NCBI GenBank assembly: GCA_001899685.1
Contig: MKWG01000022.1
Span: 39,088 to 103,087 of the forward strand
From: Sphingobacteriales bacterium 44-15
GTDB lineage: Bacteria; Bacteroidota; Bacteroidia; Chitinophagales; Chitinophagaceae
Direction of reading: 5' to 3'
Length of the DNA stretch: 64,000 nt
Within the stretch, counting starts at the first letter, position 1, and the number at the start of each line of letters is the position of its first letter. The notes under the pieces are model-generated. The model was not told the DNA's origin and searched no databases. It was given only the letters and a program-made list of their open reading frames with translations. Of the stretch, positions 12,912 through 64,000 are shown in pieces. A program made the translations under genes and the position numbers.

Positions 12912-15900
12912 ATGAATATTTCTACCTTCTGCCTTTCCAGGAAATACATTGTTTTTTTACTCCTGTTATTTGCTGCAGGCAGCCTGCCTGTATCCTGCCA
13001 TAAAAAAGAAAAACCCGGACCCGTTGATCCTGCATTTGGCAAATATATTGACGGCTATACTTCGGGAATGATCTCCAAAACGGCTGCCATACGGGTACGC
13101 CTCACCGAAGAAACGCCGGCTACTCATAGTGTGAATGAGCCGCTGAAAGAAAAGCTGTTCAGCTTTTCACCCGCTGTAAAAGGGAAAGCCTACTGGGTGG
13201 ATTCCCGTACCATTGAATTTAAGCCGGAGGTAAACCTGCAACCGGGACAATTGTATGATGTGGATTTTGATCTGGGCAAAGCAAGCGCCGTTCCGGATCA
13301 GTACAAAACCTTTCGCTTTACGGTGCAGGCAGTGAAGCCGGGATTCCAGGTAATAGATCATGGATTAAAAGTCGTTGGCAATTCCAAAGAGATGATGACG
13401 CTCACCGGGGTTGTTGAAACCGCCGATGTGGAAGCTTCTGCCGTCATTGAAAAAATATTGCATGCAAATTATGCGGGCAGCGCGGTCACCATCAAATGGG
13501 AACATAATGAAGCCGCAAAAAACCACAGGTTTACGATAGAAAACATTAAAAGGGGCGCTAATACTGCACCGCTGCAGTTGAAATGGGATGGGGCTCCGCT
13601 CGGCATTAATGATAAAGGTGAACAGTCCATTGATGTGCCTGCTGCCGGGGATTTTAAAGTATTATCGGTAAGGGCGGTGCAGGATGCCGATAATTATGTG
13701 CTGGTGCAGCTCTCTGATGCAGTAGCCACCAACCAGCAATTGAATGGGCTGATCACTATCAGCGATAAGGGCGACCTGAGCTACAGTATTGATGGCAGCG
13801 AAGTGAAACTATATGTAACAGACCAGTTCGACGGGAATTATACGGTGAATATTAATACCGGGATTCAGAATGTTTGGGGAGCGAAGCTGGACCAGGCATT
13901 TACATCCAATATCTTTTTTGAGAACCGCCTGCCTTCTGTAAAGATACAGGGCAGGGGTGTTATCCTTCCCAATACAGGGCGTCTGGTATTACCTTTTGAA
14001 AGCATTAACCTGGGCGCCGTGGATGTCAGCATTATCAAAGTATATCAGAATAATATCCCGCAATTCCTGCAGGCAAATAATCTTGACGGAGAATCCGATC
14101 TGCGGCGTGTAGCCACCCCCGTAGTGCAGCAAACCATCAGGCTTGATAATGACAAGACACTGGATCTTCATAAAAAGCAGAAGTTTTCTCTTGATATAGA
14201 TAAGTACCTGAAAGCCGAGCCCGGCGCCATCTATCATGTTACTATCGGTTTTCGCCCCGAGTATTCCTTATACACCTGCCATGATGCGGATAAGGCAGAC
14301 AAAGATGATGAAGATGATTATTACGGCTGGTATAATAATGAGGAGGAAAGCAATGTGCTCGACAGTGATGAGGGCTTCTGGAAAGTATATGATGCCTATT
14401 ATCCTTACGGCTACAACTGGCGGCAAAGGAATAACCCCTGCAGCCCGTCGTACTATAACAAAGAAAGATGGGCAAGCCGCAATATACTCGCTTCTAATAT
14501 CGGGCTTACTGCAAAAAGGGCTAACGACAACAGCATGCTGGTGGCGGTGACGGATATACTCACGGCTACCCCTTTGAGCGGCGTTGAGCTCAGGCTGCTC
14601 GACTACCAGCAGCAACTGCTGCTGACAACCAAAAGCGGTGATAACGGGCTGGCACGTTTTGACCTGAAGAAAAAACCTTACCTGCTCATTGCTTCGAAGG
14701 GAAATGAAAAAGGCTATTTAAAGCTTGATGACGGAAATTCATTGATGCTGAGCCGCTTTGATGTTGCAGGCGAGGAAGTAAAGAATGGGATCAAAGGATT
14801 CATCTTTGGAGAGCGCGGAGTGTGGCGTCCCGGCGATACCATGTATATCAATTTTGTAGTGGAGGATAAAGGCAGTAAGCTGCCGGCGGAACACCCGGTA
14901 GAGTTCAATTTATATAATCCGCAAGGGCAGTTGTATAAGCGGATGATTGAAACCAAAGGTGAACATGGCTTTTATGTATTTACTACGGCTACCGACGCTG
15001 CTTCTCCCACGGGTAACTGGCTGGCTAAAATAAAAGTGGGCGGGGCTGTATTTGAAAAAAGACTGAAGGTGGAAACGGTAATGCCTAACCGCCTGAAGAT
15101 AAACCTTGATTTTGGAAATGCTCCCGTACTGGGGAGGAATGGAGTGACTTCAGGTACGCTGAGCTCTCAATGGTTGTTTGGCGCACCTGCCAAAAACCTG
15201 AAAGCCAAAATTGACGCTTCTCTGTATGCCAGGAAAACGGCTTTTAAAAAATATCCTGCCTATCATTTTGATGATCCCACTACAGCGTATACTACAGAAA
15301 CAAAAACCATGTTTGACGGCACGCTGAATGAAAAAGGCGAGGCAACGGTCAATACAAAATTTGAAATCGGTAAAAATGCACCGGGCATGCTTAACGCCAG
15401 CCTGCTGGTAAAAGTGTTTGAGCCCGGTGGTGCATCCAGCGTAGACAACATGGTGCTGCCTTACAGCCCTTATAAAAGCTATGTTGGCATTAACATGCCG
15501 GAAGGGCAGAAGCCCTGGGGCTTTTTGCTCACAGATAAAAGTTATGATCTGCCTGTGGTAAATGTAGATGCGGGCGGCAACCCGCTCAACGGATCACAAA
15601 CGGTAGAAGTTGAAATGTACCGTGTAAGCTGGCGCTGGTGGTGGGATGACAGCGGAGACGGGTTTTCTAATTTTACCCAGGATACTTATAATAAGCTGCT
15701 CAAAAAAGATACGCTTCGTTTATCCAATGGCGTTGGTAAATGGCATTTTACCGCTCCGGGAAAAGAATGGGGGCGCTACTTAGTGCTGGTGAGAGATAAG
15801 CAGAGTGGTCACACCACGGGGCAGGTCGTTTATTTTGACGACCCCTGGTGGCAGACAAGGAGCAATGCTGATGATCCTTCTGCAGCGGCTATGCTGTCGT

Positions 15901-47972: not shown

Positions 47973-49973
47973 ATGTTACACAAAACTCCACAGATAATAG
48001 CAGCATTTATTGCCATGGTGCTTGTTACCGGATATTCATGCAAACCCAAGGATGCAGGTACAGCGGTTGGCGGCGATGCTGCTGCTAAAACTTACGTGCC
48101 TCCAGGGAAATACGATGAGTTCTACAATTTTGTTTCCGGAGGCTTCAGCGGACAGCTCAGCGTATATGGCCTGCCATCGGGAAGGCTGCTGAGGGTCATT
48201 CCTGTCTTTTCTACCGACCCTGAAAAAGGATATGGGTTCAGCGAGGAAACGAAGCCTATGCTTAATACATCACACGGGGAAGTGCCCTGGGATGATCTGC
48301 ACCATGTTGAATTGTCGCAAACCAATGGGGAAATTGACGGGCGCTGGGTATTTACCAACGCCAATAACACTCCCCGGGTAGGACGGATAGACCTGAAAAC
48401 ATTCCGCACGGCGGAGATCATAGAGCTGCCCAACAGCGCAGGTAACCACTCTTCTCCGTTCATTACGGAAAATACAGAGTATGTAGTTGCCGGTACCCGG
48501 TTCAGCGTTCCTCTTGATAATTCTAATGGCGATGTACCGATCAACAGCTATAAAAAGAACTTTAAAGGTACTATCAGCTTTATTAAAGTAGACCCGCAGT
48601 CGGGCAATATGAACATTGCTTTTCAGCTCAGGACGCCGGGAGTCAATTTTGACCTGAGCCATGCCGGCAAGAATAAATCACATGGATGGTTTTTCTTTTC
48701 CACCTATAATACCGAGCAGGCAAATACATTGCTTGAAGTAAATGCTTCGCAAAGAGATAAGGACTTTATAATGGCTGTCAACTGGAAAAAAGCCGAAGAG
48801 TACCTGGCAGCAGGTAAGGGGAAAAAAGAAACTGTAAAATATGCTCATAATATATACGACGAAAAGACGCACACTGCTACCTCAAAAATTGAAACTGAGG
48901 TGACTGTGCTGGATATATCTGAGCTGAAAGATATCTGTTATTTTATTCCCTGTCCCAAATCTCCTCACGGCTGTGATGTAGATCCTTCCGGAGAGTATAT
49001 TGTGGGCAGCGGTAAGCTGGCAGCATTGTTGCCCGTATTCAGCTTCGACAAGATCCAGAAGGCTATTGCCGCAAAAGATTTTATCGGCGACTACTCCGGT
49101 ATCCCTGTGATCAAATATGAATCTGCATTGTATGGCGAGGTGCAAAAGCCAGGGCTTGGACCTTTGCATACTGAGTTTGACGGGCGCGGTAATGCTATTA
49201 CCACCTTCTTTGTTTCTTCTGAAATTGTTAAGTGGAATATCAAAGACCTGAAGATAATAGACCGTCAGCCTACCTATTATTCTCCCGGGCACCTGTGCAT
49301 ACCGGGTGGCGATACCAAGAAGCCTAATGGTAAATATGTAATAGTATACAATAAGATCACCAAAGACCGCTACCTACCTACAGGACCGGAACTGGCACAG
49401 GCCGCACAGTTGTTTGATATCACAGGAGATAAAATGAAGCTGATCCTTGATTTCCCGACTATCGGTGAACCGCACTATGCGCAGGCTGTGGCTGCCGACC
49501 TTATCAAGGATAAATCGGTGCGCTTTTTCAATATCAATGAGAACCAGAATCCATACGTGGCTAAAGGAGAGGCAGAAACCAAAGTGGTACGTAACGGTAA
49601 ACGCGTAGATATTTATATTACAGCTATACGCTCTCATTTTACTCCGGATAATATTGAAGGAGTGAAGATGGGGGATGATGTATACTGGCATGTTACCAAT
49701 CTTGAGCAGGACTGGGATGTTCCACATGGCTTTGCTGTCAAGGCCGCGCCTACCGCTGAGCTGCTTGTTATGCCTGGCGAAACTCAAACCCTGAGATGGT
49801 CGCCGGAAAAACCAGGCATGTATCCTTTTTACTGCACTGATTTCTGCAGTGCGCTGCACCAGGAAATGCAGGGATATATAAGGGTATCTCCTGCCGACAG
49901 TAATGTTCCCCTGTCTTTTTCTACCGGCACTAATCTGCCGCCTGCCGACAGCACGGATAAAGCTGGAAAATAA
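47973..49973 (+). CDS. nosZ: Nitrous oxide reductase, clade II (Sec-exported)
   Basis: The 666-aa enzyme reduces N2O to N2 in the periplasm. The N-terminus has a Sec-type hydrophobic signal without a twin-arginine motif, which marks clade II. The seven-bladed propeller contains the His-rich CuZ segments (HHVELSQTNGE, KSPHGCDVDPSGEY, LGPLHTEFDGRGN, SPGHLCIPGGD, GEPHYAQ). The C-terminal cupredoxin CuA site has H585, then C621-T-D-F-C625-S-A-L-H629-Q-E-M632. Clade I has Trp between the two cysteines, while this has Asp, as expected for clade II. All key residues appear intact. A GTGAAT hairpin follows before the next nos gene. Confidence 0.96.
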   Translation: MLHKTPQIIAAFIAMVLVTGYSCKPKDAGTAVGGDAAAKTYVPPGKYDEFYNFVSGGFSGQLSVYGLPSGRLLRVIPVFSTDPEKGYGFSEETKPMLNTSHGEVPWDDLHHVELSQTNGEIDGRWVFTNANNTPRVGRIDLKTFRTAEIIELPNSAGNHSSPFITENTEYVVAGTRFSVPLDNSNGDVPINSYKKNFKGTISFIKVDPQSGNMNIAFQLRTPGVNFDLSHAGKNKSHGWFFFSTYNTEQANTLLEVNASQRDKDFIMAVNWKKAEEYLAAGKGKKETVKYAHNIYDEKTHTATSKIETEVTVLDISELKDICYFIPCPKSPHGCDVDPSGEYIVGSGKLAALLPVFSFDKIQKAIAAKDFIGDYSGIPVIKYESALYGEVQKPGLGPLHTEFDGRGNAITTFFVSSEIVKWNIKDLKIIDRQPTYYSPGHLCIPGGDTKKPNGKYVIVYNKITKDRYLPTGPELAQAAQLFDITGDKMKLILDFPTIGEPHYAQAVAADLIKDKSVRFFNINENQNPYVAKGEAETKVVRNGKRVDIYITAIRSHFTPDNIEGVKMGDDVYWHVTNLEQDWDVPHGFAVKAAPTAELLVMPGETQTLRWSPEKPGMYPFYCTDFCSALHQEMQGYIRVSPADSNVPLSFSTGTNLPPADSTDKAGK

Positions 49974-49981
49974 TATAGGGA

Positions 49982-50036
49982 TGAATAGTGAATGGTGAAT
50001 AGTGAACGTATTCACCATTCACCATTGCCCGTTCAC
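49982..50036 (+). repeat. GTGAAT/ATTCAC hairpin inside the nos operon
   Basis: GTGAATGGTGAAT (49988-50000) and ATTCACCATTCAC (50010-50022) form 13-bp arms around a 9-base loop. It sits between nosZ and the NosL-fusion gene and could reduce read-through or protect the nosZ message. Confidence 0.65.
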
Positions 50037-50049
50037 AAAATAATACAGC

Positions 50050-51078
50050 ATGAAACAGCATAAAATAACGGCAAGAAGCAGGATACTACTGGTTATAAGC
50101 GCGGTGATGATGGTGATCGTGCTGTTCGTTCCCATGTGGAAAATTGACCTGGTAGCGCCTCAATATCCTGAAGGGCTTGCCCTCATCATTCATCCCAACG
50201 GACTGCGCGGCAACGTGGATATTATTAATGGTCTCAACCATTATATCGGGATGAAACACCTGCATACAGAGGATTTTGTGGAGTTTACAGTATTACCGTA
50301 TATAATAGCCTTTTTTGCAGTATTGTTCCTGGTGATAGCTTTTACACGTTCAAAGCTGTTGCTCAATATCACTACTGTATTGTTCATTTGTTTTGGTATT
50401 ATAGCAATGGTTGACTTCTGGCGTTGGGAATATAATTATGGACATACACTCGATCCTAATGCGGCTATCGTTGTTCCCGGTATGGCTTACCAGCCTCCTC
50501 TTATAGGCTTTAAGCAACTGCTTAATTTCAGCGCATGGGCTTTCCCTGCGGCAGGAGGATGGTTGTTTGTGGGCGCCGGTGTATTGCTGTTGTTCGCTGC
50601 TATATCAGAGCGGGTACGGGGAAAACGGCAGCAGCGGAAAGTCAATAATAATATTGCCGCGGCATCAGCTTTGCTTATTCTCTTTACTCTCTCTTCCTGC
50701 AATAGCGGGCCGGAACCTATACAGGTGGGAAGAGATCATTGTGATTATTGCAAAATGATGTTCAGTGATGCACGTTTTGGAGCGGAAATAGTGACAGCTA
50801 AAGGCAAGGTATACAAGTTTGATGATGCGCACTGCCTGCTGGCTTTTCTGAAAGACGGGGAAGCGCAACGGAAAGAGGATGAGAAAATATATTTCGTAAG
50901 CTTCAGCGGAGATCATGCGATGATAGCTTCAGGTAATGCAATGCTGCTTAAAAGCGACCAGCTTCGCAGCCCGATGGGAGGAAATATAGCCGCTTTTGAA
51001 AACAAGGACAGCCTTGCCAAAGTGCAGATTACTTTTCCGGGTGAAGTGGTTTCCTGGAAGGATATAGCTATACAATGA
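50050..51078 (+). CDS. Fusion of a four-helix membrane domain with NosL
   Basis: Residues 1-190 are a membrane domain with helices at about 12-30, 82-98, 104-121 and 168-185; its counterpart could be NosB of clade II nos clusters (inference). Residues 200-342 are a NosL copper-chaperone domain with HCDYCKMMFSDARFGAE (C231, C234, M236-M237) and FDDAHC (C262). Between them lies a hydrophobic segment ending TLSSC (C217), which looks like an internal lipobox. The protein may therefore be a true fusion of two once-separate genes that kept the old lipoprotein signal. It would deliver copper for NosZ. The stop overlaps the nosD start (ATGA, 51075-51078). Confidence 0.85.
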   Translation: MKQHKITARSRILLVISAVMMVIVLFVPMWKIDLVAPQYPEGLALIIHPNGLRGNVDIINGLNHYIGMKHLHTEDFVEFTVLPYIIAFFAVLFLVIAFTRSKLLLNITTVLFICFGIIAMVDFWRWEYNYGHTLDPNAAIVVPGMAYQPPLIGFKQLLNFSAWAFPAAGGWLFVGAGVLLLFAAISERVRGKRQQRKVNNNIAAASALLILFTLSSCNSGPEPIQVGRDHCDYCKMMFSDARFGAEIVTAKGKVYKFDDAHCLLAFLKDGEAQRKEDEKIYFVSFSGDHAMIASGNAMLLKSDQLRSPMGGNIAAFENKDSLAKVQITFPGEVVSWKDIAIQ

Positions 51079-52313
51079 GCAGAGTGCTTATCATATTACT
51101 CTCTTTGTTGTTATCCGGGAGTGCCGGCCGGGCCGGAAATATAGAAGTGGGGAATGATAAAAGGGTAGCAACCATACAGGAAGCTCTCCGGATGGCAGCA
51201 GCCGGAGATACTATACTCGTATCTCCAGGCACTTACAGGGAGAAAAATATTGTAATTAATAAAAGTATTGTCCTTCTCGGTAAAGACTACCCGGTGCTGG
51301 ATGGAGAGCATGCTTATGAAATACTATCAGTAAAAGCGAACAGGGTAGTCATCCGCGGCTTCAGACTTGTTCATTCCGGGGTGTCCAGCATGGAAGATAT
51401 AGCGGCAATAAAAATTTATAATGCCCGGAATGTAATTATCTCCGATAATATTTTGTATGATACTTTCTTCGGGATCTATGCCCAGTCTTCCGCCAACTGC
51501 TTATTTGAAAATAATAAGCTTACAGGCATAGCTGTTACCGAGCAGGCAAGCGGCAATGGTATTCATTGCTGGAAGAGCGACAGCCTGAGGATCATCGGCA
51601 ATACGGTTACCGGCCACCGTGATGGCATCTATTTCGAGTTTGTTACCCATTCTGTTATATGGAGAAACACATCGTACGGTAATATGCGTTATGGACTGCA
51701 TTTTATGTTCTCCCATAACGATGCTTATATATCCAATATCTTTCGCAACAATGGCGCGGGGGTATCGGTTATGTTTACCCATAATGTAAAAATGTTCAAT
51801 AATGTTTTTGAAGAGAACTGGGGCGATGCCGCTTATGGTATTTTCCTGAAAGAGATATCAGACAGCTATATTTCGGGCAACAGGTTCCTGCATAATACCA
51901 GTGGTATATTCATGGAGGGGACCAACCGCATCCTCGTCGAGAAAAATGAATTTGCCGGCAACGGCTGGGCAATGAAAATACAGGCCAGTTGTTCGGGGAA
52001 TACGATAACCAATAATAACTTCAGGGGAAATACTTTTGATGTAGGTACCAATGGGTCGCTGGTGATGAACAGCTTTGATCATAATTACTGGGATAAATAT
52101 GAGGGGTATGATCTGAATAAAGATAAAACCGGCGATGTACCTTACCGACCGGTGAGCGTGTATTCTATGATCGTGGAGAAGAACCCGGCTGCAATGATGC
52201 TTTTCCGCAGCTTTATGACCTCGCTGCTGGATAAATCAGAAAAGATACTTCCTTCCCTGACGCCCGAGAGCCTGAAAGATAATTTTCCATGGATGAAACC
52301 CCTGCAGCTATGA
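51075..52313 (+). CDS. nosD: Periplasmic copper-processing protein NosD
   Basis: The 412-aa protein has a signal peptide (about 1-21) and a right-handed parallel beta-helix of CASH-type repeats (about 45-330): strings of NxxxGI/NxxYGI rungs such as NILYDTFFGIYAQSSANCLFENNKLTGIA and RYGLHFMFSHNDAYISN. This is the standard NosD fold, required for assembling the CuZ centre of NosZ in the periplasm. The length matches the family. Translation is coupled to the upstream gene by an ATGA overlap and to nosF by another (52310-52313). Confidence 0.94.
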   Translation: MSRVLIILLSLLLSGSAGRAGNIEVGNDKRVATIQEALRMAAAGDTILVSPGTYREKNIVINKSIVLLGKDYPVLDGEHAYEILSVKANRVVIRGFRLVHSGVSSMEDIAAIKIYNARNVIISDNILYDTFFGIYAQSSANCLFENNKLTGIAVTEQASGNGIHCWKSDSLRIIGNTVTGHRDGIYFEFVTHSVIWRNTSYGNMRYGLHFMFSHNDAYISNIFRNNGAGVSVMFTHNVKMFNNVFEENWGDAAYGIFLKEISDSYISGNRFLHNTSGIFMEGTNRILVEKNEFAGNGWAMKIQASCSGNTITNNNFRGNTFDVGTNGSLVMNSFDHNYWDKYEGYDLNKDKTGDVPYRPVSVYSMIVEKNPAAMMLFRSFMTSLLDKSEKILPSLTPESLKDNFPWMKPLQL

Positions 52314-53020
52314 TTATTGCAAATAATGTATCAAAACAATTTGGAAAACTGAAGGCGCTGAATAATGTGTCCGTTGCCTGCAACAAGGGAGAATGTATTG
52401 CCTTGCTGGGCCCGAACGGGAGCGGTAAAACAACCCTGATCAAAAGTATCCTGGGCATGGTAGTACCTGACAGCGGGTTTATCACTTTCAACGGGAAAAA
52501 TATATTGCACGACTGGCTTTACCGCCGCCATATTGGCTATATGCCGCAGATAGGAAGGTATCCCGACAATATGACGATAGAGCAGGTATTCAATATGATG
52601 AAGGATATCCGGTCGTTTAATGAAGATACAGCACCTGATAATTCGCTGGCAGAGCAATTCGGGCTTACCGGCATGCTGCATAAAAGGATGCGCACGCTTT
52701 CAGGCGGCACACGCCAGAAAGTAAGCGCTTCTATTGCATTTATGTTCAATCCCGAAGTATTCATTCTCGACGAGCCTACGGCAGGGCTTGACCCCGTAGC
52801 CGCCGAGATGCTGAAAGAAAGGATCATTTTTGAAAAATCGAAAGGTAAGCTGGTGCTGATAACTTCTCATGTGCTGAGCGACCTTGACGATCTTATTACC
52901 CATGTAATATATATGCAGGAAGGTGCGCTGCTGTTTCATAAAAAGATAGGAGAGCTCCAGGCTGATACAGGTGAACAAAAATTGTCCAAAGCTATTGCAG
53001 CGGTCATGCTGAAAAAATAA
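52310..53020 (+). CDS. nosF: Nos ABC transporter ATPase NosF
   Basis: The 236-aa ATPase powers the NosFY transporter needed for NosZ maturation, thought to export a sulfur or copper-assembly factor. It has Walker A GPNGSGKTT (about 33-41), a Q-loop in GYMPQIGRYPDNMT, signature LSGGTRQKVSASIAF, Walker B VFILDEPTAGLDP and H-loop TSHVLSDLDD. The ATG at 52310 is preferred because it forms ATGA with the nosD stop. The ATG at 52289 would add seven residues (MDETPAA) inside the nosD frame. Confidence 0.93.
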   Translation: MIIANNVSKQFGKLKALNNVSVACNKGECIALLGPNGSGKTTLIKSILGMVVPDSGFITFNGKNILHDWLYRRHIGYMPQIGRYPDNMTIEQVFNMMKDIRSFNEDTAPDNSLAEQFGLTGMLHKRMRTLSGGTRQKVSASIAFMFNPEVFILDEPTAGLDPVAAEMLKERIIFEKSKGKLVLITSHVLSDLDDLITHVIYMQEGALLFHKKIGELQADTGEQKLSKAIAAVMLKK

Positions 53021-53024
53021 ACAG

Positions 53025-53792
53025 ATGAACAAGCTTGTAAAATATGTATGTGCTGATATCCTGCGAAACAGGATAGTTATCGGGTATACCGCTTTTCTGC
53101 TGCTGATCTCCATGAGCGTATTCAGCCTGGAAGACAATGCTTCCAAAGGGCTGCTGAGCCTGTTGAATGTGGTGCTGATCATTGTGCCCCTGGTGTCTGT
53201 TATTTTTTCCACCATCTACGTATACAACAGCGCCGAGTTTATCGAATTGCTGGTCAGTCAGCCGCTGCGGCGAAAGCAGTTGTGGAGCAGCCTGTTTATC
53301 GGACTGTCCGGCTCCCTCTCGCTGGCATTCCTGATCGGTGTTGGTATTCCGCTTATTGTTTTTGATGCAACTGCCACAGCCTGGATAATGACAGGCATGG
53401 GGATGATACTGACCGTGATCTTTGTAGCTATTGCTATGCTGGCTGCCGTAGCCACACGGGATAAGGCAAAAGGCATAGGTATCTCTATTTTCCTGTGGCT
53501 GTTCTTTGCTGTTTTATTCGATGGGTTGGTATTGTTTGTATTATTTCAATTTGAGGATTATCCGCTCGAAAAATTCATGGTGGTGGCGGCAGCGCTCAAC
53601 CCGGTTGATCTCGGCCGCATTCTCATTCTTCTCAAATTGGATGTTTCCGCATTGATGGGATATACGGGAGCCGTGTTCAGGGATGTTCTGGGTTCACAAA
53701 CCGGGATGCTGGCAGCGGTGCTGATCCTTTTGCTCTGGGTGTTTATCGTCTTCCGGATTTCGTTGTCAAAGTTCAACAGAAAAGATCTGTAA
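53025..53792 (+). CDS. nosY: Nos ABC transporter permease NosY
   Basis: The 255-aa inner-membrane protein has six hydrophobic helices and the ABC-2 layout: helix 1 near 16-34, then a cytoplasmic VYNSAEFIELLVSQPLRRKQLW segment (about 66-87), typical of NosY, before helix 2. It is the membrane partner of NosF. The start lies 4 bp after the nosF stop, so the two are translated together. The globin gene follows after 52 bp. Confidence 0.92.
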   Translation: MNKLVKYVCADILRNRIVIGYTAFLLLISMSVFSLEDNASKGLLSLLNVVLIIVPLVSVIFSTIYVYNSAEFIELLVSQPLRRKQLWSSLFIGLSGSLSLAFLIGVGIPLIVFDATATAWIMTGMGMILTVIFVAIAMLAAVATRDKAKGIGISIFLWLFFAVLFDGLVLFVLFQFEDYPLEKFMVVAAALNPVDLGRILILLKLDVSALMGYTGAVFRDVLGSQTGMLAAVLILLLWVFIVFRISLSKFNRKDL

Positions 53793-53844
53793 GAGTACAA
53801 TCTTTTTATAAATCTTTACCACATAAGCTGTGTGTGAAGGCCGT

Positions 53845-54231
53845 ATGAAAAAAGATATCAGAACAAGAAGAGATATAGAGCGGCTGGTAGACAGATTTTA
53901 TGATAAAGTAAAAGCCGACGATCTCCTGGGTCCTGTCTTTAATGATGTAGCCCGGGTGAACTGGGAAAGGCATCTGCCTGTGATGTATGATTTCTGGGAT
54001 AATACCATTTTTTTCAGCGGAACTTATTCGGGTAATCCCATGCTCCTGCACCAGCACCTGCATGGGCGCTTCGCACTTACCGCATCCCATTTTGACCGCT
54101 GGATTGATATATTCAATATTACAGTAGATGAATTGTTCTCGGGAGAAAATGCTTCAATGGCAAAGCAAAGGGGCGGAAATATTGCTGCAGTGATAAGGAG
54201 CAAGATACTTGGGATCGGTAGCCGTGGATAA
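53845..54231 (+). CDS. Group III truncated hemoglobin
   Basis: The 128-aa globin belongs to group III truncated hemoglobins: DIERLVDRFYDKVKADDLLGPVFNDVARVNWERHLPVMYDFWDNTIF (about 6-54), the Pro-Met before HQHLHGRF that supplies the proximal-His region (about 65-75), and HFDRWIDIF (about 83-91). Such globins bind O2 and NO. Lying at the end of the nos operon, it may scavenge or sense nitric oxide. The start is the ATG at 53845; the GTG at 53830 would add five residues with no family counterpart. Confidence 0.85.
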   Translation: MKKDIRTRRDIERLVDRFYDKVKADDLLGPVFNDVARVNWERHLPVMYDFWDNTIFFSGTYSGNPMLLHQHLHGRFALTASHFDRWIDIFNITVDELFSGENASMAKQRGGNIAAVIRSKILGIGSRG

Positions 54232-54362: not shown

Positions 54363-57300
54363 TTACCCGCATGTCGGGCAGCATACAAACGGTACTTCTG
54401 TCAGCGGCGAAGTCCGCAATATCCTGTAATTTCCAAGCTCTTCATTCAGCGCCTGCCGGTTCCTTCTTCTCCGGTCGAGCAATGTGGTTACAATTTCTTT
54501 TGCATTATCAGTAGTGTTGCCCAAAGCCTGGAGCTGCTCATCCGATAATGCAAAGAAATGATCAAAAATATTGGTGATATTGCCAAACACTTCTACCACC
54601 AAAACGCTCAGTGCCGCATCTTCGGGTAGGCCTAACTGTTGCAGCAATACCGCGATCTCCTTATTGTCCCACACGGCAATGGCTGTTTTAGGCAGGTCTT
54701 TGTATATAGCTTTTATGGCGCCTGCTGCGAGAGTGGCATCTGTAAATTTAACCGCTGCCACAGGATGAGCAGGTTCTTTCAGCTTCAACTGGTCGAAAGC
54801 CTGCAGGATGCCGGTAGCCATCTCCTTATCCATCTTCACTACTTTGCCCGACCTGTAATCCTTCATTGCCTTAGTGATCTTTCTTTCATAAGCTGTGCCT
54901 ATCTTCAGCCTTGATACTTCGTTCATCAGGGTAAGATTGCTCAATACCACGTTGGCCCTGGCTATTTCATCTGTCTCACTTACTGTCCATACTTTTGTTA
55001 TATCTGCTATTTTCGGCATTATGGTATTTGAGAACAGGTTGCCGCCCTGGATATTACCAACAGCGCCTGCTGCTACAGGCTTTACCAACATCATCAGCTT
55101 TTCATCGAGCAGGATATTCCTGTATTCCAGCCTGTCTGCCTGCTGCACCTGTGCGTATAATATGCAATGCAGTTGCGTGCGGGGCGGATCGCTGGTGACA
55201 TTTTTACCCTTCCATACTGCTTTTGCATAGGGGGCATTTACATATACTTTATCCTGGTCCCTGTTCACATTACAGAGTAGCGTGGGAGCAGGGTGCTGCA
55301 TGCCCGTCACTTCCAGCGGGCGGCCAAAGCGGCCCTGCGCTGTGCTCCACAGGTTTTCCTTTTCCCCGTTGCTCCAGTGTCCGTGACCTATACGGAACTC
55401 ATAAGTGAAGAACCCAAACAGCTCGGGGCTTTCCGGATGCAGACCCGGGGGCAACGGCAGCAGGTAGTGAATGTCATCGTCATCGCTTGCTTTCTCCATC
55501 GGCTGCATGGCACTTAATCCTGCCATGTCATCTGTTTGCCCCGGAGTGATCATCCGGATATATTCCGGTTCAATGGGCAATGGCGGGTTTTCTTCCGTTT
55601 CCCGCAGCAGCTCTGCAAGCTGGTTATTATTACCGATCAGCTGATCCGGGGCATAATGCAACACCCTGCAGAACAAAGTATCGGACGGGTTCTCTACGGG
55701 CTCTTCCAGCTCCACCCACAAGTATTTCTGCCTTGCTTCTGTTGCGCTGTACTTTTCATTTTTGATATAAGGCGAAAAGGCGAGCCCTACGCTTGCGATC
55801 TTAGGCACCTGCGACGGGATAACGGTAGTTGGTAAAGTGATCAGCTCCGGTTGTATGCTCGTGGGCTGACCATGCCCCGGCTTGAAGTTAGCGGTAATGG
55901 TATATTGCACTTCGATAGTATCGGGGAAACGCAATCTTCCTGCGGGCGTAAGCAAAGAGGATTTGGGTTCTATAGCATCTATAAAAATTATGGTAGTGCT
56001 GCTTCTGTTTATGTTCCCGAAAATATCCGGTTGCAACGATTCAAAAGAAGCAGAGTGCTTCAGTTCAATATTGCCGATATTGGCGAGTATTTCTGCTTCA
56101 TCCGGTGCATCATGGGTGAACTTTTTATTTCTCGACAGGGTAAAAGCTGCGTCTTCAAGTGCATCCCAGCTCCAGTCACGGTTAATGCGGTAGGTAATGC
56201 AACCCAGCCAGTGATTGCACAGGTCGCCTTTAGAAGAGAATGTGATGCTGCTGCCGTCGGGCGCCAGGTGGTGACGGATCTTATTACTACAACCAAACAC
56301 TACTCTTTCGCCTTTTTCACCTACAAGCGTCAGCCCGTTTGATCTTACGCCTAATTGCTGTGCAAGCCGGTGCATGATATCCGGCTGTACACTCGTTTGC
56401 GTATTGAAGAAGAAAAACTGTCCTGCCACTCCTTTGCGGATATACTCCGGGTCAGGCTGAAGATACAATCCCTGCAATGAAGAGACGTTGGCTTTGGGCA
56501 CCAGCAGGTTGCTTTCGTCAGCAGATTCTTTGTAAAACCAGAACTGGGTTGTTTGACCATACCTGCTGTCCAGGTCGTGATTGCCTTCATTGATGAAGCC
56601 GTAATAGGAGCTGTCATTCCCATCGCAGACTGCGCGGATGCTCATCCTTATTTTTCTTGCAGTAGGCAATGGTATATCCGTCATGGCATCAATGGCAGCC
56701 TTGTTCAATGCAGGATCATTAAAAGGGTCGTCATTGCTGCCGGGATTTAAAGCAGGTACATCATGAAATACCACATTCAACGACATGGTATTTTCAAAGT
56801 CTTCGGCATTTGCCACTGCAGGGAAATTCCTGAAGGTAGTATACAAGGTGATATAGTTCTCTTTGCCGGTATCGCTGGCAAGATTATCAAGCCTCAGGGT
56901 TTCTGCTTCTACTTTTATTTCCACCCTGCTTACATCCGGGTCGGCAATAGCGGGATGAACAACTTTAGGCTTCAACACCGTGCCGCCCTGTTTCTGATCC
57001 TGTGCGGATTGTATCAGCAACTGTACGGGGTCGCTGCCTATGGCCTGGTATTTATTGGTGAATACCACTGCGGGGTAGTTGAGCAATGGCCTTTGTATAT
57101 TGATCACGGGGTTCGCATCAAAAGCAGAAGGCAGTCCTTCCGTAAGGATCTCATTATAAAAATCTGCTTTGATCAGTCGTATGTCCAGAGGCTTATCAAT
57201 ACGGCACAAGCCGGGCGCTACATATCGTTTGAAGCTCCATTCGGAAGTGGGCGCCGGCGCATTATTATACAGGTCTTCCGTGATGACCGGCCCGCCGCCG

Positions 57301-58811
57301 CTGATATCCATCATACGTACCCTGAACTGGTAGCGATGTCCATAACGGAGCTGCGTAGCCGCCGCTACTTCATCAAACATATTGGTCGGGCCTACGGCTT
57401 TGGTAGGAGTGGGGTCGGCAGCATTTACTCTTGCCTCGTCATTCTGGTGAATGGCAACAGCATCTGTATCTTTTAATACCATGCTTTTGCCTATCCAATT
57501 GGTAAAATACATAGGCAGCCAGAAAGGCGCTTTGGTATCATTATCCAACTGTGTGGGGAATACCTGGAAAGGCAGCTCCAGTTGCTGGTTTGGGGCATTG
57601 CCTACAGGCACGCCTCCAAAGCTGTATGCCTGCCTGCAGCTTACCAGGTTCAGGCTGCTCCAGTCCGCATTTACCGCATCTTCCTTCACATCAATCCTGT
57701 ACCCGAATACCCCCAGCGGCGCATCCACCCGTTTCCCGGGTTCCTGCGGATTGGATTCCAGTTGCCGCATATACCATATCAGCACCTGCTCATCATCCCA
57801 TGCCAGGCGAATGCCTTCATCTTTTACAGGGTGAGCGCCATCCTGTTGTTCGGCAAGCCATATACGGCTCACGGGCTGACCCGCATGCACTATTTTGGCA
57901 AAACCGTCATTATATTCATTAAGCTCGGCGAAGATCTGGTCCCAGGGGGCTTTGGGCGGCTCGGGATCAACCAGGTCTCCCGCCTTTGCAAACAATACCG
58001 GGAAAAGTATGGGCGCAAATACCGGGCGCTTATTTTCATCACCTGTCTTGAGCTTCGGCAGCCTTGCAGCATAAGGTTTAATGAACGGACCGTTTGCATC
58101 AATCATCAGCTTTTCCTGTATGCTCCTGTAGTCGGCATTGGCAATATCTGCGTATATGTAACAACCTTTCTCGAACAGATCCTTATTGGCATCATCAATG
58201 ATGAGCTGTGTTTCATATACCATACCGCAGGCTTTGGCAAGCAACGGCTGGCGCAGTATATAAGCAAACACTTTTCCCCAGCTCAGATCATCGTCATTCT
58301 TCCAGCCGTCAATACGTTTGGTCTCTTTTTTTATAGCGCAATGATAGCTGTCGTCGGTCTTTGCATTCGGCACACGCGGCCCTGTAAAGTTGAACGCATT
58401 GCAATAAGTATTCGGCAGGTACTTGTTCACAGAAGGAGAATCCGCTTGTATATCCGGCGCTTTATCGGTAGCCGTAGTATTTATCTTCGCTCCAAAATCA
58501 TCCGCTATTGCCTGCAGCAAAGCTTTTTTACTGGCAGCGCTGTTTACATTTACCGCTGCTGTCACGGGAGCGCGTGAAGCATCTAATGCATTACCGATGG
58601 GCCATTCATCCAGCCCCTTTACGATCTTCAGCTCAAACTGCGGATCAAGGTCTGCAAACGGGATGGCCGTATCATCCGGCGCAGGCAGCTCGGTAGCATA
58701 ACTGCTGAAAGGATCCTGGTTCCTCGGGATCAGTACGATGTTCAGCTTTAATACCGTCCCGTCAAAACCCTGCGGGAAAACCATCGTGGTATATCTTCTT
58801 TTCGCTTCCAT
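54363..58811 (-). CDS. Giant uncharacterised protein A (1482 aa)
   Basis: I do not recognise a family. The product has no signal peptide or membrane helix and looks cytoplasmic, unless exported by an unusual route. The N-terminus (RRYTTMVFPQGFDGTVLKLNIVLIPRNQDPF) is followed by long beta-rich stretches. One short segment, YGHRYQFRVRMMDISGGGP (about 510-528), has a fibronectin-III-like strand pattern. A stretch near 1150-1250 reads FFTYEFRIGHGHWSN, WSTAQGRFGRPLEVTG and QHPAPTLLCNVN. The region from about 1270 to 1470 is more helical. The C-terminus ends VPFVCCPTCG, a zinc-ribbon-like half motif. Antisense frames are open (57582-58577), which is common with this composition. It follows giant gene B after 145 bp on the same strand. 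Confidence 0.7.
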   Translation of the reverse strand: MEAKRRYTTMVFPQGFDGTVLKLNIVLIPRNQDPFSSYATELPAPDDTAIPFADLDPQFELKIVKGLDEWPIGNALDASRAPVTAAVNVNSAASKKALLQAIADDFGAKINTTATDKAPDIQADSPSVNKYLPNTYCNAFNFTGPRVPNAKTDDSYHCAIKKETKRIDGWKNDDDLSWGKVFAYILRQPLLAKACGMVYETQLIIDDANKDLFEKGCYIYADIANADYRSIQEKLMIDANGPFIKPYAARLPKLKTGDENKRPVFAPILFPVLFAKAGDLVDPEPPKAPWDQIFAELNEYNDGFAKIVHAGQPVSRIWLAEQQDGAHPVKDEGIRLAWDDEQVLIWYMRQLESNPQEPGKRVDAPLGVFGYRIDVKEDAVNADWSSLNLVSCRQAYSFGGVPVGNAPNQQLELPFQVFPTQLDNDTKAPFWLPMYFTNWIGKSMVLKDTDAVAIHQNDEARVNAADPTPTKAVGPTNMFDEVAAATQLRYGHRYQFRVRMMDISGGGPVITEDLYNNAPAPTSEWSFKRYVAPGLCRIDKPLDIRLIKADFYNEILTEGLPSAFDANPVINIQRPLLNYPAVVFTNKYQAIGSDPVQLLIQSAQDQKQGGTVLKPKVVHPAIADPDVSRVEIKVEAETLRLDNLASDTGKENYITLYTTFRNFPAVANAEDFENTMSLNVVFHDVPALNPGSNDDPFNDPALNKAAIDAMTDIPLPTARKIRMSIRAVCDGNDSSYYGFINEGNHDLDSRYGQTTQFWFYKESADESNLLVPKANVSSLQGLYLQPDPEYIRKGVAGQFFFFNTQTSVQPDIMHRLAQQLGVRSNGLTLVGEKGERVVFGCSNKIRHHLAPDGSSITFSSKGDLCNHWLGCITYRINRDWSWDALEDAAFTLSRNKKFTHDAPDEAEILANIGNIELKHSASFESLQPDIFGNINRSSTTIIFIDAIEPKSSLLTPAGRLRFPDTIEVQYTITANFKPGHGQPTSIQPELITLPTTVIPSQVPKIASVGLAFSPYIKNEKYSATEARQKYLWVELEEPVENPSDTLFCRVLHYAPDQLIGNNNQLAELLRETEENPPLPIEPEYIRMITPGQTDDMAGLSAMQPMEKASDDDDIHYLLPLPPGLHPESPELFGFFTYEFRIGHGHWSNGEKENLWSTAQGRFGRPLEVTGMQHPAPTLLCNVNRDQDKVYVNAPYAKAVWKGKNVTSDPPRTQLHCILYAQVQQADRLEYRNILLDEKLMMLVKPVAAGAVGNIQGGNLFSNTIMPKIADITKVWTVSETDEIARANVVLSNLTLMNEVSRLKIGTAYERKITKAMKDYRSGKVVKMDKEMATGILQAFDQLKLKEPAHPVAAVKFTDATLAAGAIKAIYKDLPKTAIAVWDNKEIAVLLQQLGLPEDAALSVLVVEVFGNITNIFDHFFALSDEQLQALGNTTDNAKEIVTTLLDRRRRNRQALNEELGNYRILRTSPLTEVPFVCCPTCG

Positions 58812-58956
58812 AATATAGAGGTCTTTTTTTAGCTGTCAGCTGTGGGCTATCAGCTATCAGGTTATAAGTTTCAGGTTTCTCCATTCACTATTACACGTTC
58901 ACAACATCTCACATTTTATATTGCCGGCTGACACCCACATCTCACAGCCCACAGCC
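58812..58956. repeat. Spacer with CTATCAGC and ATTCAC words between the giant genes
   Basis: AGCTGTCAGCTGTGGGCTAT (58831-58850) has its complement GCCCACAGCC in 58944-58953 and could form a long-range stem. CCATTCACTATTACACGTTC (58881-58900) belongs to the GTGAAT/ATTCAC family. It may uncouple expression of the two giant genes. Confidence 0.5.
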
Positions 58957-61900
58957 TTACGCCACCTGCCTGTCTTCTCCCCATGTTTTGGAGAAGCTGA
59001 TATCTATTACCAGGAATATGCTGATATCAATGGCAAAAGTTACCTGGGCGCTGCAGTCTGTTTTATCGTTGGCGATATCGCGGACAACAATGCCTTTTGC
59101 TTCAATGGTTATGCATACACAAACCAAACCGCCAAGCAGGTTTGCCTGTCCTTTGAATACCATTAATGCAGCCAGCACTACTTTATCTTTATTGGCCGAC
59201 ATTTCAACGCCTACCATAAAGCTTACGCTGGCATTGCCTACAACCGGCAAACTAACGACTATGGATACCCCAAACCCGAATTTCAGGTACAGGCTTGGTC
59301 CTACCTGTGTGTCCGCGGCGATCTTTACATCTACCGCACCGATGGCATAAATAGAACCAACACCAACAGAGTAGCACATGATCTGCAATCCGCCGTGGAA
59401 CTGGAGAAATGCGCCTGCGGTTGGTAGTAATTGCGACGGATCTGTGGTTACCTTCAACGCTGCATTGAAGTATACGCCTGCGCTTAAGGATGCTTCGAGC
59501 TTGAGCGGCGTTTGTGCACTGTTGTAGAGCTCATCTGTTGGCGGGAAGCGGATAGTGGCGATCTCCTTGCTGGCTTCAAACTTATACTGCCATATTTCTC
59601 CGCTGTTGCTCATGGCCATCTTCAATCCTTTCTTCAATACATCTTTATAGTCATTGGTGCTTAAAGAAGCCAGCATCTGCAGTATGTCAATTACCGGCTG
59701 TAAAGCATCGCTGAATTCTATTTCCGGCATCGGCAAGCCGTCAGTGTCATCATCAGGTCCGCCTTCATAATTACTTTCCTTTCCTTTCTTCGCATCAAAG
59801 TTCCCCTTGATGGTCATCAGGCGTTTCATATCGCCAAGGTCGACCACCATTGCCAGGTTGTTCAGGCGGCTTTTCCACTGACCCGCCATATCACCTGCAA
59901 AGGAGTCCACATCAAAATTCAGCTTGCTGTCTACATAGCTGGCAGGCGGCGCATCTTTTTTACCTGTTTTGTATTCAATGTATATTCTCAGCGCTTCCGT
60001 ATCTACCAGCGGTACCTCAAAAGACGGCACGTCAAATCTCAATGCTTTATCCAGTAACCCGTTGGCCCCCTGCTTGAGCATATTCATGCCCTGGTTTATC
60101 ACGGCTTCGCCTGCTTTCTCTGCTTCCACCTTCATTAATTCCCACACTTTTTCCCCGCCATCTTCCAATGCACTTTGTGCAAAAGCCTGGAAAGTATTGC
60201 CGTTAATATCCTTGCTGTTGAGCAATGGCATTGCTTTGCCAAAATTGTCAATAGCATTCCCGATATTGGGGAATATGGCCTCTCCCGTCATCAGGCGGTA
60301 GGCGTCTGCAAAAACCGGCGGCGTTTTGCTGAGCATTTTATCGATATTCAGTCCATACGCAGGTGTGAGGAACAACGCTTTCTGTGTAGCGGTAGTTTGC
60401 AGGTAGCCGAAGTTGATGGTATCCGTGGTTGGGTCGCGCAGTATCTCCATAGGATGCGCCACGCGCACCAGTTGTTTTTGCAAAGTATTATTATCAACCA
60501 CATTTCCCTTTTTCCACGTGCCTGTGCGAATCAGCGGGACCATGGTATCTGTGGGTAAAGGCGTTACTTCACCGGTGCCTGTACTATGCTGTACCAGTGC
60601 CCAGCTACCGTCTTTGGGAAGGAATATATTTCCGCGGGCAGCCACTACAAATACGGGTTGAGTACCTGCTTTGTCAACGGAAGGCGCTACATCAAACCTT
60701 GCTGCCCGTATCTGCTGGTTGCTCTTGTTGATATCAAGCACGCAATCTATATCCCCGCCGATACTGCCATTCTGCAGATCCAGGAGCTCTTTCAATTGCT
60801 GGGCCGTCAACGGCTTGCCTGCGGGCGCGAGCTGCACATAACCAAGGATACGTTTGGATACTACTCTTTTGTTTACATGCCCCTGCACCACATTTTCTAT
60901 TTCCACGTCCGCATCAAAATATACGCCGCCGCATTTTACAGGCTCATGCCTTTCTGTGGCATCATTGGTATATATCTGCCCTTTCACGCCATTCAGGTAG
61001 TCGGTATTGGGAGCTATGATATTTTCACTGTTATATTCCGTAACCGATGGTGCGTCTTTAATATTCCTTACATTAAATAATCCCCTGATGATGCCTGTAT
61101 GAAATTCATACTGCGGAGGTACATTGTTCACCTCGTCGGGGATATGCACAAAATCATTAACGGTAAGGTTGCTGAAGGGATCAATGCCTTTCTTTAAATA
61201 ACTGAATGAAAAATCAAATAACCCGTCGCTTTCCGCTTTCCACCCGCTGTCGGTACGGAATACATAACCCGATCCGGTACGGAAAACAGTGATAGTGCGT
61301 ACCACGCGGATACCCCAGGGATATAAAATACTTTTCACCTGAATTACTTCATGCCCGGTGCGGCCAAGCATTACGTCGAACCTTGCTTTGCTGGTTTGTG
61401 CCAGCGCCGCACCGGGGCTGATCCAGTTGCTGAAAATGCTGGCACCATAACCCGTAACATCCATGCGTGAAACAGGCACGCCGCGGGAATCTTTGAGAAG
61501 AGAGGAAAGGCTTAATGGTCCGAATAAAAATTCATTATTAAAAATTTCAGTGACCCTATGCCCGAGATTACTTGCATAAGACGCAATGCCGAACCAGTTG
61601 AGCAGGTTATTGGCCTGCACGGTATAACCGGGGAACATGTCGCTGTCGTACTCAGAGGGATTGGCAGGATTGGGTTTGCCAAACCTCCCTGCCTGCAGGC
61701 TTAACTGGATACCGCCTTCCAGCTTGTAAGTCCCGTCGTCAGCATTCTTTTTGAATTTAGGCCGGATGTTTTCAATTGCCGGTTTTTGAGGTTCCACAAA
61801 ATGTTTTGAAATATAGCTGATGGCTTTTAATCCGAATGGTAAAGTGAAAACTGCCAGCGTATAATTGTCGGGCTGAGATTTAAAATCTTCTATCAGTCCG

Positions 61901-64000
61901 TTGGCGACGGGGATGGGTGCAAGCGGCACAGGCACTGTATTATTATTCCATATACGCGCCGGGCCGCCATCGTTGGCATAATACAAAAATCCTGCTTCGG
62001 GGTCCATCAGCAGTTTGGGTGATGAGAGATCAAGCGGGTTATCCCTGTCGGGCGGAGTAAGATTGATCTCAGGTTCCCAGGCCATCAGTGGCAAAGTAAA
62101 GGTCCTTACCCTGTTAGAAGGTAATTTCACCTGCATGCCCTCTACCAGGAAGGGAAATGCTGTATTGTATGCTGTAGCATTATAATCTACCTGCTGCATT
62201 TCACCATCCCTGCCGCGTACGCTCCCGGTCTTTATGATCTGCCAGTTGGTGCCAAAGCTCACGCCCAACTGGTTGGCATTACTGCTTACATCCAGCAGGG
62301 AGAAAAATTCGTTCTTTATACCAATACTGTTATCCCAGACATCTTCAATATCTTTCTTCAGCTTAAATAACTCTTCAGGACTGTAGATCTTCCCGTCAGG
62401 TTTTTTAAACCCTCCAAGTAGGTCTGCCTCCAGTTCCGGCTCCTGCTTTACCAATACGCCATCCGTCAGTACATCACCTATTACTTCAGGTAAAAACTGG
62501 TTGGTGGTGAGTTTGGTGGTGGTACTGAAGTTGCCGAAAATAGCTTTTGTTGCTAATGCCGTTTTACTCAATGGCTTTTTTAAAGTGGTAATAGTGATCC
62601 TTGCTTTTGCCGCAGAAGTTTTACTTGCTTTTTTGGAAGAAGGTACCGGAGCATTTTCGGGTAGATCCATGATGTTAGGCAGCTCAACACCGCCGAAGTA
62701 GAAATTGACTTTTACATTATCGGTTTCTTCATCAGCTCCAACAAAGGTTATGAAGCATACCAGCAGGCTGCTGAAACCTGCGGCTCCTGCCAATCGGTTA
62801 TACCTGTCATTATTTGCGCCTCTTCTCCACAATCCCAGCTTTGCCACATAAGGATCGGGCAGGGTAGGGAGGTAGCTGTAAAGGGTAAATACAATAATAA
62901 CATTCCCGCGTCTTACGTCAGTCATGCTGTCATTACACTCTCCGAAAAGTATAAATGTTTTTACCGGTGAAACAGTAAATAATGCATTTTCGAGCGCTAT
63001 GGAAAATAACCTGACTTGCTGAGCTGCTCCGACAATCTTAGCCTGGTCTGCCTGCACATCATCTTCTATCAGCATTATCCTCCTGCCGGTCTTACCGCCA
63101 CTGAGCAGGAGAGAACATGATAGAGATTCTACGGGAAATGGTTCTCCGTTCACTTTTACGGGCCTGTCAGCCTCTATATCTGCAGCGCAGAATGTGCTGA
63201 TCACTTCAACCGCAGTCTTACTGTTGCTGATATAAATGAGCGGCGCCTTTTCCAATAATGTGAGATCGGCGGTGGTGCCATGCGGGTTTTGTTCGTCCTG
63301 CCACAACTGCAGGTGCTGTGATGCGCCAAGCCCGTTTGATCCGAGATCAATAATTGCCAGGTCGCCCGGTTTTCCGAGTATGGCAGGATTGAGGAGACGG
63401 ATATCTTCGTCCTGCAGACCTGTCCAGCTTAGGCGTAATCCGTCTCCACATTGCAGCATAACCAGCCCGTTGCCGGAAGCTGCAACAGAAGCGGCTATAT
63501 TAATAGCGCTTGTTGGTAAAGCCCAAAAAGATTTTTGTAGTTGAGCTGATTCCGAAATGCTTGTCCACGGGCTTTGATCTTTGGAAACGGTACATTTATT
63601 TACGCTTGCCTTCCATGGGATCAGCAGCATATCATTTTCATATTTGAACGCAGTGCTTGCGGCAGGCGTAAAACTGAAAGCGATCTCCTGTCCGTATATA
63701 TTACAGGAAGACGGGGCTATCTGTGTAACGTTTGCCTTATTATTTTGCCAGGTAAACATCCATGTGGATGGAAGTGTATAGGCAGCATCACGGGCATCCT
63801 TACCGTAAGGGGAGGTTTCTGCCGCTCCGGCATCTGCTTCCTGCACCAGTTCCAGCGACATATCAATGGCAGTGGCGGGACTAATGGTAATTTGATTATT
63901 CTGCAATGTTGGCGCTGCGCTTAATTTAAGTGTTCCTTTTTTTACCTGCACACCAACAAATCTTTCAACAGGTGCAGATGAAAAAAGGAATTTCGCATTG
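58957..64000 (-). CDS. Giant uncharacterised protein B (at least 1680 aa, runs off the window)
   Basis: The frame is open to the end of the window. The GTG at 63951 is not the true start, since coding continues upstream (KFLFSSAPVERFVGVQVKKG). No family is recognised. Residue numbers here count from that GTG. The region to about 470 is beta-rich and includes LGLWRRGANNDRYNRLAGAAGF. A middle part (about 600-1000) has tracts such as WEPEINLTPPDRDNP and FRTGSGYVFRTDSGW. The C-terminal 200 residues are striking: alternating hydrophobic, Gly-rich strands (SLSAGVYFNAALKV, GAFLQFHGGLQIMCYSVGVGSIYAIGAVDV, LYLKFGFGVSIVVSLPVVGNASVSFMVGVEM) ending KTWGEDRQVA. This could be a membrane-inserting sheet or a lipid-binding surface (inference). 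It is upstream of protein A and likely in one operon with it. Confidence 0.7.
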   Translation of the reverse strand, partial: NAKFLFSSAPVERFVGVQVKKGTLKLSAAPTLQNNQITISPATAIDMSLELVQEADAGAAETSPYGKDARDAAYTLPSTWMFTWQNNKANVTQIAPSSCNIYGQEIAFSFTPAASTAFKYENDMLLIPWKASVNKCTVSKDQSPWTSISESAQLQKSFWALPTSAINIAASVAASGNGLVMLQCGDGLRLSWTGLQDEDIRLLNPAILGKPGDLAIIDLGSNGLGASQHLQLWQDEQNPHGTTADLTLLEKAPLIYISNSKTAVEVISTFCAADIEADRPVKVNGEPFPVESLSCSLLLSGGKTGRRIMLIEDDVQADQAKIVGAAQQVRLFSIALENALFTVSPVKTFILFGECNDSMTDVRRGNVIIVFTLYSYLPTLPDPYVAKLGLWRRGANNDRYNRLAGAAGFSSLLVCFITFVGADEETDNVKVNFYFGGVELPNIMDLPENAPVPSSKKASKTSAAKARITITTLKKPLSKTALATKAIFGNFSTTTKLTTNQFLPEVIGDVLTDGVLVKQEPELEADLLGGFKKPDGKIYSPEELFKLKKDIEDVWDNSIGIKNEFFSLLDVSSNANQLGVSFGTNWQIIKTGSVRGRDGEMQQVDYNATAYNTAFPFLVEGMQVKLPSNRVRTFTLPLMAWEPEINLTPPDRDNPLDLSSPKLLMDPEAGFLYYANDGGPARIWNNNTVPVPLAPIPVANGLIEDFKSQPDNYTLAVFTLPFGLKAISYISKHFVEPQKPAIENIRPKFKKNADDGTYKLEGGIQLSLQAGRFGKPNPANPSEYDSDMFPGYTVQANNLLNWFGIASYASNLGHRVTEIFNNEFLFGPLSLSSLLKDSRGVPVSRMDVTGYGASIFSNWISPGAALAQTSKARFDVMLGRTGHEVIQVKSILYPWGIRVVRTITVFRTGSGYVFRTDSGWKAESDGLFDFSFSYLKKGIDPFSNLTVNDFVHIPDEVNNVPPQYEFHTGIIRGLFNVRNIKDAPSVTEYNSENIIAPNTDYLNGVKGQIYTNDATERHEPVKCGGVYFDADVEIENVVQGHVNKRVVSKRILGYVQLAPAGKPLTAQQLKELLDLQNGSIGGDIDCVLDINKSNQQIRAARFDVAPSVDKAGTQPVFVVAARGNIFLPKDGSWALVQHSTGTGEVTPLPTDTMVPLIRTGTWKKGNVVDNNTLQKQLVRVAHPMEILRDPTTDTINFGYLQTTATQKALFLTPAYGLNIDKMLSKTPPVFADAYRLMTGEAIFPNIGNAIDNFGKAMPLLNSKDINGNTFQAFAQSALEDGGEKVWELMKVEAEKAGEAVINQGMNMLKQGANGLLDKALRFDVPSFEVPLVDTEALRIYIEYKTGKKDAPPASYVDSKLNFDVDSFAGDMAGQWKSRLNNLAMVVDLGDMKRLMTIKGNFDAKKGKESNYEGGPDDDTDGLPMPEIEFSDALQPVIDILQMLASLSTNDYKDVLKKGLKMAMSNSGEIWQYKFEASKEIATIRFPPTDELYNSAQTPLKLEASLSAGVYFNAALKVTTDPSQLLPTAGAFLQFHGGLQIMCYSVGVGSIYAIGAVDVKIAADTQVGPSLYLKFGFGVSIVVSLPVVGNASVSFMVGVEMSANKDKVVLAALMVFKGQANLLGGLVCVCITIEAKGIVVRDIANDKTDCSAQVTFAIDISIFLVIDISFSKTWGEDRQVA

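Follow-up and report, generated by a model that had tools for sequence, protein, structure and literature searches.

Two adjacent giant genes, here called A and B, constitute an ancient pair whose members occur together in several bacterial phyla. They lie at one end of a stretch of 64,000 nucleotides from Sphingobacteriales bacterium 44-15 (the window, by which the whole stretch analysed is meant), where they form a two-gene unit in the order B then A. The genes are paired and keep this order in intact copies, their trees are largely congruent, both products evolve under constraint and homologous pairs occur in four phyla. The reading that we prefer is that A and B are probably two subunits of one giant complex, likely built mostly of beta structure and encoded by an operon that is inherited and transferred as a unit, and that in groups 2 and 3 of its relatives (the window's own pair belongs to group 1) the complex would be exported through the Tat pathway with A hitchhiking on B. 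The coordinates of both genes, and of the stretches of their products discussed below, are collected in Table 1.

Table 1. Location in the window of genes A and B and of the stretches distinguished in their products.
Feature	Window positions	Strand	Description
Gene A	54363..58811	minus	1482 aa, ATG start; second gene of the pair; from the ORF listing, 13 relatives and the alignment
Gene B	58957..64000 (part in window)	minus	First gene of the pair; the window part encodes 1680 aa and holds all but the first 545 bases
FnIII-like stretch, A residues 365-545	57177..57719	minus	GYRxDV...WxSL ... LRYGxxYxFRVRxxDxxG; inside the region common to groups 1 and 2
C-terminal tail of A, last 29 residues	54366..54452	minus	LGxxRIxRTSPLxxVPxxC; from the tails of 24 sequences
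C-terminal domain of B, residues 1640-1862	58960..59628	minus	Hydrophobic, beta-like (by eye)
Most conserved stretch of B, residues about 1061-1113	61207..61365	minus	Motif GRTxHEVxQVxSxxYPWGIRVVRT

B is complete in the host contig (C22 of genome G000, an assembly of 6.0 Mb in 46 contigs), where it encodes 1862 aa from an ATG at C22:103632, equivalent to window position 64545. The masses of A and B in this genome are 165 and 203 kDa. The genes are separated by 145 bp (window 58812-58956), and this gap contains the inverted repeat gctgtgggct ... agcccacagc; scans for promoters and terminators gave counts close to those of shuffles. Across the 30 loci listed the gap varies from -4 to 174 bp, the genes overlapping in four of them, and it is longer in the window's pair and those nearest to it (123-174 bp) than in the 25 other loci listed (-4 to 60 bp). 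On the other side of A, on the opposite strand, window positions 47973-54231 hold genes that by eye resemble a nitrous oxide reductase cluster (nosZ, L, D, F and Y); a small globin-like gene beside A falls in the same interval. The plus strand carries a further giant gene at window 12912-18506; it encodes 1864 aa and its start looks lipoprotein-like by eye.

Thirteen relatives of A were found in genome_contigs, matched over nearly the whole length and 48-84% identical in the best segment; they belong mostly to Chitinophagaceae, with Mucilaginibacter and Kriegella in addition. B directly precedes A, in the same order, at all 13 loci; at L006 just the tail of B is present. A is intact at every one of them, and so is B at each of the 12 loci that contain its full stretch. 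Among 395 genomes of the phylum, matches to A occurred in 15 (ten strong, five weak) and matches to B in 11. Every genome with a strong A holds an adjacent B (10/10, two being cut by contig ends), and the eleventh genome with B (G213) carries a fragment that is interrupted by two stops. Counting only the strong matches to A, the co-occurrence of ten A and 11 B in 395 genomes has a hypergeometric P of 4.8e-19; the group-1 B profile matched nothing in the five weak-A genomes. The spread is patchy, since the 13 other sampled genomes from the window's family have neither A nor B and several genome_contigs species of the same family have both. The shared process that the initial annotation had proposed for the two proteins is supported by their adjacency in one order in the intact copies read, by this co-occurrence and by the agreement of their trees. 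A second, divergent B-A pair was observed in Paraflavitalea sp. CAU 1676 (L098:4393-13505).

Both proteins are under purifying selection. Compared with the five closest relatives, A has a dN of 0.09-0.16 and a dS that is 2.3-3.0 or exceeds what can be estimated; for B, compared with four, the values are 0.06-0.17 and 1.1-1.4 or too high. The A and B trees have most groups in common, and in both of them Kriegella joins Chitinophaga at 99/98. This grouping runs against taxonomy and points to a probable transfer of both genes together. The two trees conflict, with good support in both, among four close sequences of family f18, and they also differ over a few rows that are weakly supported or long-branched.

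Homologous pairs, again in the same order, are present in Bacteroidota, Chloroflexota, Pseudomonadota and Actinomycetota. Group 2 was reached through the five weak A matches, of which four lie beside a B-like giant and the fifth (L051) at a contig end; A is split at L052, and at L050 B appears to go out of frame near its end. Plasmid searches with A, B, group-2 A, group-2 B and group-3 A named 22 records, of which 21 were opened, the one left out being NZ_CP046333.1, a second Cupriavidus. The pair is present in 16 of the 21, namely in Chlorohelix (Chloroflexota), Microvirga terrae, Tistrella, three Streptomyces, Cupriavidus CH34, Diaphorobacter, R. phaseoli, three Rhizobium of other kinds, Agrobacterium vitis, two Sinorhizobium meliloti and Ruegeria. 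Wherever the plasmid record is annotated, the giants are named 'hypothetical protein'. B lies in two frames in Tistrella and in R. ruizarguesonis TP23, and A in two frames in A. vitis; the other five records hold only remnants of one gene, A in L091, L122, L123 and L124 and B in L120.

The kinship of the groups was analysed with hhalign. Between groups 1 and 2, residues 170-530 of A scored 96.7% (97.2% with group 3 added) and the last 120-130 residues of B 95.1% (94.0% with group 3 added), against 0.2-2.2% for the reversed-profile controls of the A and B matches (1.9-2.2% for the end of B); outside these two regions, the other halves tested gave nothing significant. Groups 2 and 3 matched at 100% over 921 columns of A and at 100% over 598 columns of B, plus 88.7% at the end of B, with three group-3 members, and a match to group-2 A was also obtained with the A of L125 (E 1e-9). 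Direct matches between groups 1 and 3 are weak (6.9% for A and 1.6% for B).

The initial annotation had placed neither protein in a known family and had seen no signal peptide in A. The latter point agrees with our hydrophobicity scan, within the reach of such a scan, and the former was upheld by profile searches. No credible match to A or B was found in Pfam, NCBIfam, PHROGs or PADLOC, where the best group-1 E value was 0.064 and everything stayed below cut-off (some of these searches used the 1680-aa part of B as query). Against PDB chains, the whole profiles of the two proteins (alignments A1 and A2) returned nothing at E 1 or less and the end-of-B profile nothing at E 10. The group-2 B of L053 and L054 matched Apolipoprotein, ATG17-like and LeoA at E 1e-4 to 1e-3, below the Pfam cut-offs and over a coiled-coil-like stretch, and no enzyme or carbohydrate-binding family rose above cut-off, CBM32 and CBM77 appearing only at E 0.1-0.24 in single members. 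A defence system was rejected on the lack of PADLOC matches, and a phage protein on the lack of relatives in phage or viral contigs for A, group-2 A and B (for B, viral_contigs only); comparison of the two proteins showed no relationship between A and B. Membership in DUF6603 (PF20248) was rejected as well, there being no Pfam match and hhalign scores of 0.1-0.8% for A and 0.2-6.3% for B, the highest of which falls at the end of group-2 B (P 0.006) and is too weak to claim. A search of open full text with a few terms found nothing on the B-A pair. As all of these tests are on sequence, a fold already described may still turn up.

When the profile of A residues 365-545 was compared with PDB chains, it matched titin (E 8.9e-6, the sum of six weak stretches), myomesin (0.0014) and FN3con (0.0056), all of these being whole-sequence E values with weak single stretches. 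A may contain an FnIII-like domain. Most of group 1 has conserved the C-terminal tail of A, which follows a variable linker (about residues 1240-1365); the motif of the tail occurs once in the host genome. In B, about the last 120-130 residues are common to groups 1 and 2 (about 120 columns in hhalign), and the motif of the most conserved stretch resembles GRDxxVxVxxxGxLFPFG of some group-2 B, a profile match that taken alone is weak (2.1%, P 0.02) but that is colinear.

The Tat pathway carries folded cargo. Tat-type leaders were sought by a rule, written after some leaders had been seen, that asks for RR, any residue, two non-polar residues and then at least 12 uncharged residues in a row, all within the first 120 residues. 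The rule selected the B of 3/11 members in group 2 and of 4/5 in group 3 (7/16 together), against 7/948 control windows from inside the same proteins. It selected none of 40 A and none of 23 group-1 B, including the B of the window, whose own frame opens only 18 residues upstream of its start. By the rule, eight of the 11 group-2 B are without such a leader, some of their starts being uncertain; L121, which the rule missed, and L126, which is outside the count, carry one by eye. A looser first pattern also matched three group-1 B, which have no hydrophobic stretch, and was dropped. On the conjugative S. meliloti plasmid pC a 55-aa TatA-type protein, annotated as such, is encoded 49 bp after A (L117:22901-23068); in loose scans of 17 and 41 loci no second convincing tatA turned up beside the pair, and the other matches were chance-like. 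The leaders suggest that B of groups 2 and 3, where it bears one, is a Tat substrate, as predicted from its sequence. Group-3 B alone reaches 246-363 kDa, far above the 150 kDa given as the upper size of Tat cargo in one review (PMC6708511), so that either the Tat limit is softer than thought or the leaders do not export the whole protein.

The pairing, together with the export tag on the B of distant relatives, suggests that A and B work as one large two-part complex. Both proteins would be folded and put together in the cytoplasm. In groups 2 and 3, Tat would then export the finished complex, or B, with A as the hitchhiker. Group 1 is without a leader, and its complex would therefore stay inside or leave by another route. 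With less weight, the FnIII-like stretch and the lack of a recognisable catalytic domain point to a job of binding or scaffolding and not of catalysis. A wider proposal, which we put forward only tentatively, is that the giant pairs might form a superfamily whose complexes are completed in the cytoplasm and, in several lineages, pass intact through Tat as a folded cargo of about 250-570 kDa, once with a tatA of their own; the window's group would be a leaderless branch with the complex kept inside or released otherwise.

The Tat-type leaders on the B of relatives and the FnIII-like stretch in A would also suit an exported or surface-held device that binds or degrades polymers or lipids, with A and B sharing a substrate but not forming a tight complex. 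Small proteins with Sec-like leaders (by eye) adjoin some group-3 pairs, a phospholipase C-like gene precedes the Ruegeria pair and a metalloprotease gene lies some 7 kb off in Microvirga. However, no such neighbour is constant, and the enzyme and carbohydrate-binding families remain below cut-off, so we regard this explanation as unlikely.

It is improbable that the pair is a carrier or effector of a toxin-complex type system, even though patchy spread, plasmids and transfer would fit one and Tc-like genes, one of them with a TcA_TcB_BD domain, are found just 5' of B in two Chitinophaga genomes. That domain occurs in only 2 of the 18 pair-holding genomes searched (three further genome_contigs loci were left out) and not in the host genome. 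Neither protein contains an Rhs, Tc or toxin domain, and a variable tip domain is likewise lacking: the extreme C-terminus of A ranks among its better conserved parts. The Tc-like genes belong to loci L096 and L012/L015 (Chitinophaga rupis and Chitinophaga sp. GbtcB8), where a small nucleotidyltransferase-like gene stands between them and the B-A pair.

The initial annotation had noted that the locus runs past the window and had raised a larger machine, to which A and B would belong. The first of these statements holds for the missing bases of B and not for any recurrent neighbour: in an all-against-all comparison of the neighbouring open frames of 41 loci, no family except A and B stood beside more than five, and those that reached up to five are common types by their look, such as TonB receptors and sensor kinases. 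In the host contig, three open frames (230, 764 and 1695 aa) follow on the same strand past the start of B, the first beginning 426 bp away. The machine itself, with A and B as two parts among further giant proteins, was rejected and must be considered very improbable. It is favoured by Flavisolibacter, in which five giants stand in a row on one strand (2340, 1276 and 1062 aa, then B and A), but the three 5' of the pair occur together in Rhizobium tropici with no A or B in the 39 kb read, the 1062-aa protein matched none of the 395 genomes (a search with no positive control) and the 1276-aa one matched two weakly. These three genes are a second giant-gene unit, present in one order at L097:411-14486 (Flavisolibacter) and L116:6814-21207 (R. 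tropici CIAT 899, pRtrCIAT899c), with products of 2340-2480, 1225-1276 and 1062-1087 aa, and Flavisolibacter is the one place where they were seen beside A and B. In that copy no Pfam family exceeded the cut-off; the last gene looks phospholipase-D-like by eye. Finally, the idea that the open frames persist by chance or are a decaying relic is refuted by the low dN against high dS and by the intact A and B of the genome_contigs loci, the relics found elsewhere saying nothing of the window's copy, and this explanation is practically untenable.

A deep, transferable two-gene unit that has no family name in any library searched is a gap in the bacterial protein map. If the Tat reading of the pair were true, its members would be very large folded Tat cargoes and would allow a direct test of the size limit of the pathway.

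Comparison with known systems gives partial likenesses. Towards FnIII domain proteins, the likeness lies in the FnIII-like pattern at A residues 365-545, but this stretch is about an eighth of A and the rest is unmatched. The DUF6603 giants are similar in being giant, patchy, of the same phylum and, by eye, hydrophobic and beta-like; DUF6603 is present in 12 of 247 genomes of the phylum (11 over cut-off) and not in the host genome. Tc toxin complexes also consist of giant proteins and are neighbours of the pair in the two Chitinophaga genomes, but A and B are without their domains and TcA_TcB_BD is absent from 16/18 genomes. Tat hitchhiker complexes are represented by PaoABC of E. coli, a Tat-exported multi-subunit complex that uses the hitchhiker mechanism (PMC4273604). 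One subunit has a twin-arginine leader and its partner has none, and the complex is folded before export, as A and B would be. In contrast to them, the A/B pairs reach 363 + 209 kDa, match no cofactor-enzyme family and, in the window's group, are leaderless.
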